Shown: positions 24,215-29,206 of the stretch, piece after piece
Numbering within the stretch: the first letter of the stretch is position 1
Layout: every line of letters begins with the position of its first letter
Assembly (NCBI GenBank): GCA_011526285.1
Contig: WTJU01000044.1
Location: 1 to 52,770 of the forward strand
Source of the DNA: Candidatus Arcticimaribacter sp.
Lineage (GTDB): Bacteria; Bacteroidota; Bacteroidia; Flavobacteriales; Flavobacteriaceae
DNA: 52,770 bases
Reading direction: 5' to 3'
Made by a program: the position numbers and the translations under genes
Notes under the pieces: generated by a model
What the model saw: only the letters and a program-made list of their open reading frames with translations
Database searches by the model: none
Told to the model about the DNA's origin: nothing

Positions 24215-24222
24215 TAATTTTG
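24215..24222 (+). promoter_or_regulatory. -7 element candidate for uvrB
   Basis: TAATTTTG 18 nt upstream of the ATG at 24241. Confidence 0.45.
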
Positions 24223-24240
24223 AGGTTTGATACAATTGCT

Positions 24241-26229
24241 ATGCCGTTTCAATTAGAATCTGAGTTTTCGCCCACTGGAGATCAGCCCGAAGCCATTAAA
24301 CAACTGGTAGACGGTTTTCAAGGGCAAGAAAAATTTATGACTTTACAGGGAGTTACAGGTTCAGGAAAAACCTTTACCGTGGCCAACGTAGTAAAAGATT
24401 TACAGCGCCCCACCTTAGTTCTAGCGCACAATAAAACGCTAGCGGCACAGTTGTATTCAGAGTTCAAGCAATTCTTTCCCAACAATGCGGTAGAGTACTT
24501 TGTTTCTTACTACGACTACTATCAACCCGAAGCCTATATCCCTGTTACGGGAACCTATATCGAAAAAGATTTATCCATTAACGAAGAGATTGAAAAACTT
24601 CGCTTAAGCACTACCTCTTCCCTCCTCTCAGGACGACGAGATGTATTGGTGGTAGCCTCTGTTTCCTGTCTCTACGGTATTGGTAATCCTGTAGAATTTC
24701 AGAAAAACGTTATCACCTTAGAACAAAACCAAGTCATCTCACGCACTAAATTGTTGCACCGCTTGGTACAGAGTTTATACTCACGAACTACAGCCGACTT
24801 TAACCACGGGAATTTTCGTGTAAAGGGAGACGTGGTAGATATCTATCCCAGCTATGCTGACACCGCTTTTCGCGTTCATTTTTTTGGCGATGAAATTGAA
24901 GAGATTGAAGCCTTTGATCCCATTAATAATCAAACCATTGAACGCTATGAGCGGCTAAATATTTACCCCGCCAATATGTTTGTGACCTCCCCTGATATTT
25001 TGCAAAATGCCATTCACCAAATTCAGGATGATTTGGTTAAACAAATTGATTTTTTCAGAGAAGTAGGCAAACCTTTGGAAGCAAAACGCTTGGAGGAACG
25101 CACAAATTTTGACTTAGAAATGATTCGTGAATTGGGGTACTGCTCTGGGATAGAAAACTATTCCCGCTATCTAGACGGAAGAGCACCCGGAACGCGGCCT
25201 TTCTGCCTGCTGGACTATTTTCCAGACGATTATTTAATGGTGATAGACGAAAGCCATGTCACCGTCTCACAGGTACATGCCATGTACGGCGGAGACCGAA
25301 GTAGAAAGGAAAACCTTGTCGAATATGGCTTTCGCCTACCTGCGGCTATGGACAACCGCCCCTTAAAATTCGAAGAATTTGAAGGCCTGCAAAACCAAGT
25401 GCTATTTGTAAGTGCCACCCCAGCCGATTATGAACTGGAAAAATCGGAAGGAATTTTTGTCGAACAAATCATCCGCCCCACCGGCTTGTTGGACCCTATC
25501 ATAGAAGTTCGTCCGAGTGAAAATCAAATTGATGACTTGATTGAGGAAATTCAGCAGCGGGTAGAAAAAGATGAACGTACGCTTGTTACTACCCTAACCA
25601 AACGCATGGCCGAGGAGCTGACCAAATACATGAGTCGTATTCAAATTCGCTGTCGCTACATTCACAGCGATGTAGATACCTTAGAACGGGTGGAGATCAT
25701 GCAAGACCTGCGCAAAGGACTGTTTGATGTCCTCATTGGGGTTAACCTCTTGCGGGAAGGTTTGGACTTACCCGAAGTTTCGCTTGTCGCAATCTTAGAC
25801 GCCGACAAAGAAGGTTTCCTTCGCTCCAACCGTTCCCTCACCCAAACGGTAGGGAGAGCCGCACGTAACATTAACGGAAAAGCCATTATGTATGCGGATA
25901 CCGTGACCCGCTCCATGCAGGAAACCATTGACGGTACCAACTACCGCAGGGATAAGCAAATGGCCTACAACAAAAAGCACAAGCAAGTACCCAGGGCCTT
26001 AAACAAGTCGTTAGACAATGCCTTGTCAACCAACTCTGTTGCGACCTACGCCCAAGAAAAGGCGGAGCGTAAAGCCGCAGAAGAAGCTACGCGCTACCTT
26101 ACCAAACCACAAATTGAGCAACGCATTCGTGATGTGCGTAAGGCCATGGAAAAAGCCGCCAAAGAATTAGACTTTATTGAAGCTGCACGCCTACGCGATG
26201 AAATAAAAAGCCTACAAGAGCAGTTGTAA
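24241..26229 (+). CDS. uvrB: excinuclease ABC subunit UvrB
   Basis: FSPTGDQPEAIKQL, GVTGSGKTFTVANV, HNKTLAAQLYSEFKQFFPNNAVEYFVSYYDYYQPEAYIP, C-terminal UVR motif. ATG at 24241. Confidence 0.97.
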   Translation: MPFQLESEFSPTGDQPEAIKQLVDGFQGQEKFMTLQGVTGSGKTFTVANVVKDLQRPTLVLAHNKTLAAQLYSEFKQFFPNNAVEYFVSYYDYYQPEAYIPVTGTYIEKDLSINEEIEKLRLSTTSSLLSGRRDVLVVASVSCLYGIGNPVEFQKNVITLEQNQVISRTKLLHRLVQSLYSRTTADFNHGNFRVKGDVVDIYPSYADTAFRVHFFGDEIEEIEAFDPINNQTIERYERLNIYPANMFVTSPDILQNAIHQIQDDLVKQIDFFREVGKPLEAKRLEERTNFDLEMIRELGYCSGIENYSRYLDGRAPGTRPFCLLDYFPDDYLMVIDESHVTVSQVHAMYGGDRSRKENLVEYGFRLPAAMDNRPLKFEEFEGLQNQVLFVSATPADYELEKSEGIFVEQIIRPTGLLDPIIEVRPSENQIDDLIEEIQQRVEKDERTLVTTLTKRMAEELTKYMSRIQIRCRYIHSDVDTLERVEIMQDLRKGLFDVLIGVNLLREGLDLPEVSLVAILDADKEGFLRSNRSLTQTVGRAARNINGKAIMYADTVTRSMQETIDGTNYRRDKQMAYNKKHKQVPRALNKSLDNALSTNSVATYAQEKAERKAAEEATRYLTKPQIEQRIRDVRKAMEKAAKELDFIEAARLRDEIKSLQEQL

Positions 26230-26487
26230 CCCTTCTATACTCAATAGACTAGGCCTTTTCGAACACTAACTATTTTTTTGTAGTTTAGTTGTAAACGATC
26301 CCAAATCTGTTCTACTAGCATGATAAACCTACGGCATCTACCCGATAGATTTCGAAAACAAATGATCATCCATGCAGTCTTGGGGTGTGATGAGGTGTTG
26401 CTGAAAAAAAATAAAACAAAAAGGATAAAGGTGATATATCGTATCCTGTTCTGATATACAGTAGTTATGTAGGATTAAAACAAAAGA

Positions 26488-27552
26488 ATGACAAAAGAAC
26501 CAGAATTTAAAAGAGGAGAGAAAGGTTATCTTAAAAGATTTGTGAACCTTTTTCAGTCAGATGCTGAAATTGCTCTAAATGATTTTAAGTCTAAAGCTAG
26601 ATCGAGCATAGCAGAAGTAAATGAAATTAAAGCAACACTTCATAAACAAATAGAATTAGTGAAGGGGACTATAATAACGTTAGCTTCGAATCAAGAAAAA
26701 ATTGATGTCAAACTCACCGAAGTAAATGAATACTACAGGTCTATTTTTAAGAAAAATGAAGAGGGAATTGTTGTTACAGATGAAATAGCAAGTTATTCTG
26801 ACAGGTTTATTGAATACAAAAATGAAGTGGAAGAGCTAAAAAAAGATATTGATGAATATAGAAAAGAATTATTTGGCTCAGAAGACGGAAAGGGAAAAAA
26901 AATCCCTGGTGTGGAACATAAAATTCAAGGTTTAAAAACAGATTTTCAAAAGAATATTAAAGTAAGTCAATCAGAAATTGACACTTTCATTACGACTAAT
27001 AGTCAAAGAAAGGACGAACTTTTTGACAAAATAGAAGGACTATTAAAGGGAGCAAGCACAGTTGCCTTAGCCAAGGCCTTTAAAGAGCATAAAGATTCTT
27101 TTAAATTTTCAAATTGGATTTGGTTAATTCTCTTTATATCATCAGTAGGTTCTATGATGGCATTGTCAGTTTGGGGATATAAACAATCAAATTTTGAGTT
27201 AGAAAATATGTGGAAATTTACGCTTGGAAACTTGCCGTTTATTGGTGGAACAATTTGGTTAGCAATATTTTCAAGTAAGCAAAGAAGCCAGAATAAAAGA
27301 TTACAGCAGGAATATGCATACAAAGAAGATATTGCTAAAATATATTATGGCTTGAAACAAGAAATAGACGAATTAGGAGAATCGGAGTTAGGCAAGAAAT
27401 TGAACGAATCTGTGTTAAAACTTGTAATTGATGTGGTTGGTCTTAATCCGAGCGAGTCTTTGGAAAGCAAAGCTCATAATGATAATGGACCCGTTTTAGA
27501 AGGACTAAAAAGTATTGGAGAAACTATAAAAACAATCAAAAACCCAACATAA
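26488..27552 (+). CDS. orphan coiled-coil membrane protein, putative accessory gene
   Basis: 354 aa; long charged helical N-terminus, two hydrophobic segments (WIWLILFISSVGSMMALSVWGY; LGNLPFIGGTIWLAIF), helical C-terminus. AT-rich; all 9 Arg codons are AGA/AGG. Confidence 0.75.
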   Translation: MTKEPEFKRGEKGYLKRFVNLFQSDAEIALNDFKSKARSSIAEVNEIKATLHKQIELVKGTIITLASNQEKIDVKLTEVNEYYRSIFKKNEEGIVVTDEIASYSDRFIEYKNEVEELKKDIDEYRKELFGSEDGKGKKIPGVEHKIQGLKTDFQKNIKVSQSEIDTFITTNSQRKDELFDKIEGLLKGASTVALAKAFKEHKDSFKFSNWIWLILFISSVGSMMALSVWGYKQSNFELENMWKFTLGNLPFIGGTIWLAIFSSKQRSQNKRLQQEYAYKEDIAKIYYGLKQEIDELGESELGKKLNESVLKLVIDVVGLNPSESLESKAHNDNGPVLEGLKSIGETIKTIKNPT

Positions 27553-27697
27553 TAATATATATGAAATCATAGTTCCCTGTGGTCACTACGCTTCATATAT
27601 TAAACGTAAACCTAACTTACATTACCTTAAACCCCCTGACAAACAACTTTAACTTTACCACAACATAGGTACCTAAAGGATTTTTTACCTTTAAGGC

Positions 27698-29206
27698 ATG
27701 AAAAAGATAAGGCTTTGTCTCTTCCTTTTTGGGTGTGTTTTTGGCGCGAAAGGCCAAGAAATACAAGGGCAGTTGTTAGACAGCCTCACCCAAGAGCGCA
27801 TTCCCTTTGCTACCGTATTGAGCAATTTTGGAGAGAATACCATTAGCAATGAAGAAGGGAAATTTCGTTTGATTCGCGGAACTGCCTTTCAGTCTAGTGA
27901 CTCATTATTCATATCCTGTATGGGCTATAATGAAAAACGCTTAGCCATTACAGAGCTCGCAGATTCTTTACTCTACCTCAGCCCAAAGGAAATCGAGCTC
28001 AATGCAGTTATCCTCTCCCAGCAGAACTTGAGTGCAGAAGAAATTGTGAAAAGAACCCGAGAAAATGTGGCGCAGAAATATGATTTAGGCCTCAGTAAGA
28101 AAACGTTCTTCCTTCGGGAATCTTTTTCTCAGCGTTGGTTACAACGCGATATGGCGATTAAAAAATCAACCATCAATGAGTTTAAACAAAGCTTTTGGGA
28201 TTCCCTGTTTCGCACCATTCCCGAGAAAGACACTTGGCACACAGAATCCTTAGGTGAATTGGCGGGGGATTGGTCGGAAGAACAACAAAAACTTCATCTG
28301 TTACGCGCAGTCGATTTAGCCGATACGGTAAATGCCAAAGGCTATGAACAAATAGAAGAAAAAATCACCTCTATTTTAGATGAAAGCGTTAAAGAAAATT
28401 CCTACTTCAAGTTCAAATCAGGAATTTTTAGCACCAAAGTAGACCGTGATGAAGTGATTGAAAAAGAATTGGATACCCTTAGTTTGCCTGAAAAAGAACA
28501 GGAAGAAAAACGCAAAGCCGAACAAGAACAAAAAGAGGGATTTTACAAAGGACGTAAAAACCGATTGACAGAAATTTTCACCTCCCTCATCAAGCGAGAT
28601 CGCTTGGATATTGATGTGCTTACAAAAAGTCATCTGTACAATTATGAACTGGTCAATTTCACCTACCGTGAGGATTTACCGGTCTACCATATTCGTTTTA
28701 CACCAAATAGCAGTAAAGGAAAATATCAAGGAAGTATGTATGTGGATGCTGACAGTTTCAGCTTGATTCAACTCGAATACGACAACGTGCAAAACCTACG
28801 TGATTTTTCATTGATGGGGTTTTCTTTTTCTGCTTACGGACGAAGTGTTAAGCTCAAGTTTTCCTCCTTTAATAAAGCGCGGTATCAACTGGCATTTTTA
28901 ACCGTAGAAACAAAATTTAAGACGGGGATTGATCGCCCCATAAAAATTGTGGAGAAAAATAAGTTTGTAAAAGGGCGAAGAAAACAAAATGAATTAAAAG
29001 GAGAAGTGCACTTTAAGCTCGATCAAAAGAGCAGCGTTACCTTGGTGATCTTTAACAGCGAGACCGTCTCAAAAGAAGGTTTTGAAAACTTTGAAGAAAC
29101 CAAAGTATTTAAAGCCGCACAACGCAATGCCTATGACCCAAAATTTTGGGAAGGCTACACCATCATTGAGCCAAATGAAGCCATAAAGGCCTTTACTACC
29201 AACTAA
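27698..29206 (+). CDS. carboxypeptidase-like regulatory domain-containing protein
   Basis: Signal peptide followed by EIQGQLLDSLTQERIPFATVLSNFGENTISNEEGKFRL (CarboxypepD_reg-like). Confidence 0.82.
   Translation: MKKIRLCLFLFGCVFGAKGQEIQGQLLDSLTQERIPFATVLSNFGENTISNEEGKFRLIRGTAFQSSDSLFISCMGYNEKRLAITELADSLLYLSPKEIELNAVILSQQNLSAEEIVKRTRENVAQKYDLGLSKKTFFLRESFSQRWLQRDMAIKKSTINEFKQSFWDSLFRTIPEKDTWHTESLGELAGDWSEEQQKLHLLRAVDLADTVNAKGYEQIEEKITSILDESVKENSYFKFKSGIFSTKVDRDEVIEKELDTLSLPEKEQEEKRKAEQEQKEGFYKGRKNRLTEIFTSLIKRDRLDIDVLTKSHLYNYELVNFTYREDLPVYHIRFTPNSSKGKYQGSMYVDADSFSLIQLEYDNVQNLRDFSLMGFSFSAYGRSVKLKFSSFNKARYQLAFLTVETKFKTGIDRPIKIVEKNKFVKGRRKQNELKGEVHFKLDQKSSVTLVIFNSETVSKEGFENFEETKVFKAAQRNAYDPKFWEGYTIIEPNEAIKAFTTN

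Follow-up and report, generated by a model that had tools for sequence, protein, structure and literature searches.

The gene that follows uvrB in this 52,770-nt stretch of Candidatus Arcticimaribacter DNA (hereafter the window) raises the question of where it came from and what its product, a membrane protein of 354 residues, may do for the host. An earlier note on the sequence had described it as a codon-atypical, AT-rich orphan, acquired recently as a one-gene module and perhaps serving in phage defence. The ORF, its coordinates and its ATG were given correctly there, and upstream of the ATG at 26488 the frame stays open for just three more codons. The gene is AT-rich as claimed, with both GC (0.316; mean of the 41 other window ORFs 0.409, sd 0.021, z -4.3) and GC3 (0.240; mean 0.363, sd 0.034, z -3.6) being the lowest among the 42 window ORFs, and all nine arginine codons are indeed AGA or AGG, compared with 95 of 682 (14%) elsewhere in the window (p ~2e-8). 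The synonymous codon likelihood of the gene given its amino acids is, however, within the normal range (z +0.9), and its signal is thus one of AT-richness and arginine codons, not of general codon atypicality. The promoter motif TAnnTTTG, reported as missing, is absent from the 258 bp upstream, but this is uninformative as a distinguishing mark, as it is also absent at six of eight other plus-strand starts (250 bp upstream of each).

Across most of the genus uvrB has 87-96% identity, and in five congeners it runs straight into the same downstream gene, with gaps of 96 bp (G007), 44 bp (G011), 48 bp (G005), 61 bp (G003) and 61 bp (G014) against 1468 bp in the window, and about 1.4 kb has therefore been inserted here (Table 1). 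The right border of the insert is fixed, since window positions 27625-27664 align, with a score of 33, to the G007 intergenic sequence that begins 22 nt behind uvrB, where 100 shuffles reached 23 at best, while the left border is placed only to within ~22 nt. The 354-aa gene is the sole gene assigned to the inserted stretch. A search with the protein itself found homologues in none of the 18 congeners and in none of 41 further relatives; the genomes for this genus are in part incomplete, and the empty sites behind uvrB were read directly from sequence. The ends of the insert are marked neither by terminal repeats nor by a tRNA or Rfam RNA, and no convincing target-site duplications were found. 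The comparison of the uvrB-downstream locus across sister genomes (no homologue in any of the 18 congeners, an empty site in five) supports the recent acquisition of a one-gene module, and neither conserved synteny in the genus nor a housekeeping family, which would have spoken for vertical descent, was found. The gene is thus very probably horizontally acquired. The inserted leader upstream of it contains a 44-aa ORF (26320-26454, plus strand; MINLRHLPDRFRKQMIIHAVLGCDEVLLKKNKTKRIKVIYRILF), which is perhaps a donor remnant and perhaps a chance frame.

Table 1. Features of the locus behind uvrB and of the protein encoded in the inserted segment (positions in the window)
Feature	Position	Strand	Basis
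uvrB, left flank of the insertion	24220..26229	+	Protein 96% identical to nearest sisters
Inserted segment, ~1.37-1.4 kb, from uvrB stop to next conserved gene	26230..27624		Sister comparison and border alignment
Membrane coiled-coil gene, phrog_34659-like	26488..27552	+	Intact ORF, 354 aa, ATG start
Residues 13-206, long helical coil with small beta hairpin at tip (130-140)	26524..27105	+	AlphaFold2 model; variable part
Juxtamembrane collar, residues 181-206, conserved; L194 invariant within GASTVALAKAF	27028..27105	+	Mean pairwise identity 0.49, 43 members
TM1, residues 207-232	27106..27183	+	Hydropathy above 1.2; inside unbroken model helix
TM2, residues 249-265, invariant W257	27232..27282	+	Hydropathy, model, alignment
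Signature helix RLQQEYAYKEDIAK, residues 266-300, best conserved part of the family	27283..27387	+	Mean pairwise identity 0.55
C-terminal helices, residues 301-354, invariant N320 (NPS motif)	27388..27549	+	Alignment, model
Conserved downstream gene, right flank	27698..29206	+	Stands directly behind uvrB in sisters

The two transmembrane segments behind a long helical coil, as read earlier from the translation, are confirmed by hydropathy (approximately residues 207-232 and 244-265) and by an AlphaFold2 model (mean pLDDT 82, pTM 0.43), which is all-helical with a long coil and contains helices at residues 13-87 and 96-129, one unbroken helix at 142-233 passing through TM1, and a helix at 249-295 carrying both TM2 and the signature; the relative placement of these helices is unreliable because of the low pTM. 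Eight residues are invariant in 43 members (L194, W257, L272, E275, Y276, K279, E280 and N320), of which L272, E275, Y276, K279 and E280 belong to the signature helix, while G130, in the beta hairpin, is near-invariant. Mean pairwise identity is ~0.20 up to residue 140, 0.27 for residues 141-180, ~0.2 in TM1 and the loop, and 0.45 in TM2, compared with the higher values of the collar before TM1 and of the helix behind TM2 (Table 1). The hairpin loop between the transmembrane segments has ~16 residues in the window protein and is poorly conserved. Lys/Arg-rich stretches flank both segments on the coil side and on the C-terminal side, and by the positive-inside rule both ends of the protein are therefore likely to be cytoplasmic, the coil (residues 13-206) presumably being a cytoplasmic sensor. 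The protein shows no enzymatic domain, whether nuclease or other, a Foldseek search of the model against the PDB (E 0.001) gave no similar solved structure, and a viral structure library gave one weak match, which is unnamed.

The description as an orphan of no recognised family holds only for curated libraries, as Pfam, NCBIfam and PADLOC contain no entry for the family and, like the PDB, return coiled-coil chance matches only, whereas profile searches reveal a widespread family. The sole label found for it is phrog_34659 (PHROGs v4), which is of function-unknown type. A direct hmmscan of the window protein against phrog_34659 matches residues 251-311 only (E 1e-7), while a profile-profile comparison (hhalign) with a phrog_34659-type alignment, consisting of six proteins of which none is shared with the window-family alignment, gives 99% probability (E 4e-19). 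The superfamily core is present, namely the GLA.AF collar, two transmembrane segments, the helix R/K-L-x-[QE]-[ED]-Y-x-x-K (x represents any amino acid) and the NP motif. Members picked up by a core profile are scattered over different genera of the family-level group and across the phylum, the weakest matches of this profile, such as those with internal stops, being attributable to chance, and tblastn against plasmids adds distant relatives from Leptospira, Acinetobacter, Vibrio and Campylobacter. The seed alignment search yields 73 genome loci and 9 viral contigs, the former spanning Bacteroidota, Pseudomonadota, Campylobacterota, Verrucomicrobiota and candidate phyla. A separate match, L003 in G205, contains stop codons and was rejected as chance. 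In a tree of 64 members the window protein falls in a clade with 100/100 support together with L142 from Flavobacteriaceae (59% identical over the core), L129 from Crocinitomicaceae and L131 from Flavobacterium. That the window gene belongs to a real and widespread family is hence close to certain. The window protein itself had no tblastn match among phages, and the genome and viral scans with the initial query were empty because that query is too divergent. In the literature, supplements and the newest defence databases apart, no name or test of the family was found by accession or description, and it was not identified, supplements again apart, among the tested systems in parts of the articles of Rousset (PMC9122126) and Vassallo (PMC9519451). 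Members also occur in candidate-phyla bins (L109 and L112; Moraniibacteriota, Parcubacteria), and the gene preceding the L109 member resembles, by eye, a Cas2/SinR-like protein.

Homologues of the window gene were found inside operons for restriction-modification (R-M), within defence clusters and at defence hotspots of prophages. In 8 of 75 distinct loci (L113, L117, L128, L133, L150, L155, L156 and L168) hsdS immediately precedes the family gene in the same orientation, and in seven of these, L156 being the exception, hsdR then follows, either at once (L117, L128 and L155) or after one or a few genes (L113, L133, L150 and L168). The family gene of L117 overlaps both hsdS and hsdR, the identity of the latter being confirmed against the PDB. 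Pfam Methylase_S is found in 8 of 139 immediate neighbours, whereas among 140 distant genes from these loci no more than one has it (p 0.003-0.018), and relatives of R-M and Abi genes make up 26 of 256 genes within 1.5 kb and 0 of 315 beyond 4.5 kb in a seed search, which is biased in favour of such a result, as its seeds were drawn mostly from near neighbours, whereas the Pfam test is free of that bias. Other types of R-M system are also represented: in L129, from the window's own clade, the gene follows a type III Mod gene at a distance of 20 bp, and Res lies upstream; in L090 its neighbours on one side are an NgoFVII nuclease and two cytosine methylases and on the other an Eco57I-type system; in L099 it overlaps a type IIG-like gene; and in L101 it stands behind an N6/N4 methylase. 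By the seed search most of the 75 loci lack an R-M or Abi gene, and no such gene adjoins the window copy, whose flanks are uvrB and the conserved chromosomal gene. An Abi_2 family gene (L150:10161-11090) lies between the family gene and hsdR, so that a single slot of this type I operon holds two accessory genes; a 522-aa protein (GAGAETGYGLPSGG...; L168:6522-8090) without a PADLOC match is an embedded accessory in the same position in a Cellvibrio type I operon; and in a Sulfurimonas type I operon (L113:4855-7985) the stretch from the family gene to hsdR contains, by eye, NTPase-like, HTH-like and toxin-like genes.

Apart from R-M systems, the gene adjoins AbiGi and AbiTii in L089, precedes Septu PtuAB and a CBASS cyclase with a TIR effector in L108, and lies on a conjugative element ~4 kb from Septu PtuAB in L142, which belongs to the window's own clade. 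Sister-subfamily copies are found in P2-like prophages of Klebsiella and of 12 E. coli genomes, where they stand, in the two prophage sites viewed, between the replication endonuclease and the portal gene; this slot is the P2 tin/old hotspot, which two articles describe as home to several validated systems (PMC9519451, PMC9122126). Family copies are also carried on conjugative plasmids, and some members have ordinary chromosomal surroundings or lie in phage structural regions. In Wohlfahrtiimonas and a viral contig (L159, L181 and L160), the immediate neighbour of the gene is a phage tail GPD-like gene, and this prophage slot differs from the P2 hotspot. A membrane protein of 278-307 aa is encoded 25-45 bp behind the family gene in loci of Comamonadaceae type and in a viral contig (L121:9931-10785, L152:9742-10575 and L178:3830-4750) and may be a conserved partner within one subfamily; DUF6216 is matched by three immediate neighbours, which are apparently the same proteins.

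As the family stands repeatedly inside R-M operons and phage-defence clusters, it is probably a horizontally spread defence accessory linked to R-M and other phage defences, as judged from sequence and gene order. The phage-defence guess made earlier is thus supported by genomic context, the role being putative. The best explanation of the whole, to which a probability of roughly 0.5 is given, is that the window gene encodes an acquired, stand-alone and mobile inner-membrane defence protein that would act as an infection-sensing membrane effector. The effector step taken separately, in which activity would be triggered once the coil detects infection or a failure of restriction, is tentative and carries somewhat less than even odds, as it draws on topology, conservation pattern and analogy, there being no enzymatic domain and no matching solved fold. 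Both termini would be cytoplasmic, and the variable coil would sense infection or the failure of restriction, upon which the conserved collar and the membrane hairpin would assemble and perturb the membrane, and growth would be halted before the phage matures. Such a protein would form a second line of defence like PrrC/RloC beside R-M enzymes, with the membrane as its target instead of tRNA. Rather doubtful is a broader proposal for this cross-phylum family, namely that it is a common R-M accessory whose coil would monitor restriction or phage proteins, while the hairpin with its RLxQEYAxKE collar would depolarise the cell or keep restriction enzymes where DNA enters.

The protein may instead be a membrane tether, which would recruit restriction complexes or nucleases to the inner membrane at phage DNA entry and would not kill the cell. 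Its gene lies inside type I operons, with overlaps in L117, and has type I, II, III and IIG neighbours, and SNIPE, a membrane-bound nuclease acting during injection, offers a precedent (PMC13190303); a tether is nevertheless unlikely, as the partners are mutually unrelated (type I, type III, Septu, Abi or none), many copies including that of the window stand alone, and the coil is the variable part, whereas a shared partner predicts a conserved docking face. Less probable again is superinfection exclusion, where a membrane protein spread by phages and plasmids would block DNA injection or the entry of rival elements, as might be expected from its membrane location and from the copies in P2-like and other prophages and on conjugative plasmids; this would leave the placement inside hsd operons unexplained, and the short, poorly conserved outer loop would give little to act on incoming phage. 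A similarly low probability is assigned to a gene for the maintenance or physiology of mobile elements (partition, membrane stress or plasmid biology) that merely shares hotspots with defence genes: such hotspots also hold non-defence cargo (PMC9122126), several loci have no defence neighbour, and the Vibrio plasmid copy is near parA/parB, but the positional decay of R-M/Abi neighbours and the operon-internal positions exceed what shared hotspots by themselves would suggest. It is highly improbable that an old gene of the genus was lost elsewhere and is AT-rich through its coiled-coil composition, for although a Lys/Glu-rich coil lowers GC and overall synonymous usage is normal, GC3 and arginine codons deviate too, the congeners have no copy and five an empty site, and the nearest relatives belong to other genera and families.

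Extra defence modules are already known inside R-M operons and P2 hotspots; what is new, with respect to the libraries and literature searched, is a nameless membrane protein common to type I, III and IIG R-M neighbourhoods, abortive-infection loci and prophages. The closest named relative is phrog_34659, which includes the protein WP_001003256.1 of a P2-like prophage in E. coli HS and shares the C-terminal architecture of the window protein (GLA.AF collar, two membrane segments, RLxEDYxxK signature helix and NP motif), but has a longer and different N-terminal coil and the signature ED-Y-x-[FY]-K in place of QEYA[HY]KE; the E. coli HS copy, at NC_009800.1 926128-927519, offers direct access in a laboratory host. 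Among known effectors, the SLATT proteins resemble the window protein in their two-TM hairpin with flanking helices, and weak viral fold matches are annotated SLATT; membership was rejected, as there is no Pfam match and hhalign against small SLATT sets gives 0.7% (SLATT_1) and 0.3% (SLATT_4). ZorA likewise combines a membrane part with a long coil and gives a weak PADLOC match (E 0.003), but Zorya was rejected too, as this 14.8-bit match covers the coil only, Pfam MotA is not matched and no ZorB-like partner stands beside the gene. YaxA/xenorhabdolysin-type pore toxins were set aside because their weak sequence matches have no fold support. SNIPE, considered together with PD-lambda-1 (DUF4041; PMC13190303, PMC9519451), cuts phage DNA during injection (PMC13190303) and contains a nuclease domain, whereas the window protein has no Pfam DUF4041 or nuclease match and is not a member. 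DarTG2 is positioned between hsdS and hsdR (PMC12255303) and is thus an extra defence module in the same type I operon slot, but it is a two-gene ADP-ribosylating toxin-antitoxin system of unrelated protein sequence. PrrC and RloC, R-M-linked anticodon nucleases and the proposed second line upon failure of restriction, are likewise encoded by accessory genes inside type I/III R-M loci and yet often stand alone, PrrC being silenced by its linked type I R-M system and woken by the anti-restriction peptide Stp (PMC2610378). The window protein is unlike them in being a membrane protein of unrelated sequence without ATPase or nuclease motif, and it is excluded from that family by its all-helical membrane model and the absence of Pfam/NCBIfam matches to ABC ATPase or ACNase. 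As only 8 of 72 RloC copies lie in type I or III loci (PMC2610378), the present family may also be an R-M-style second line though most of its copies stand alone, and if this is true, a membrane-acting partner is added to the PrrC-style second line behind restriction.
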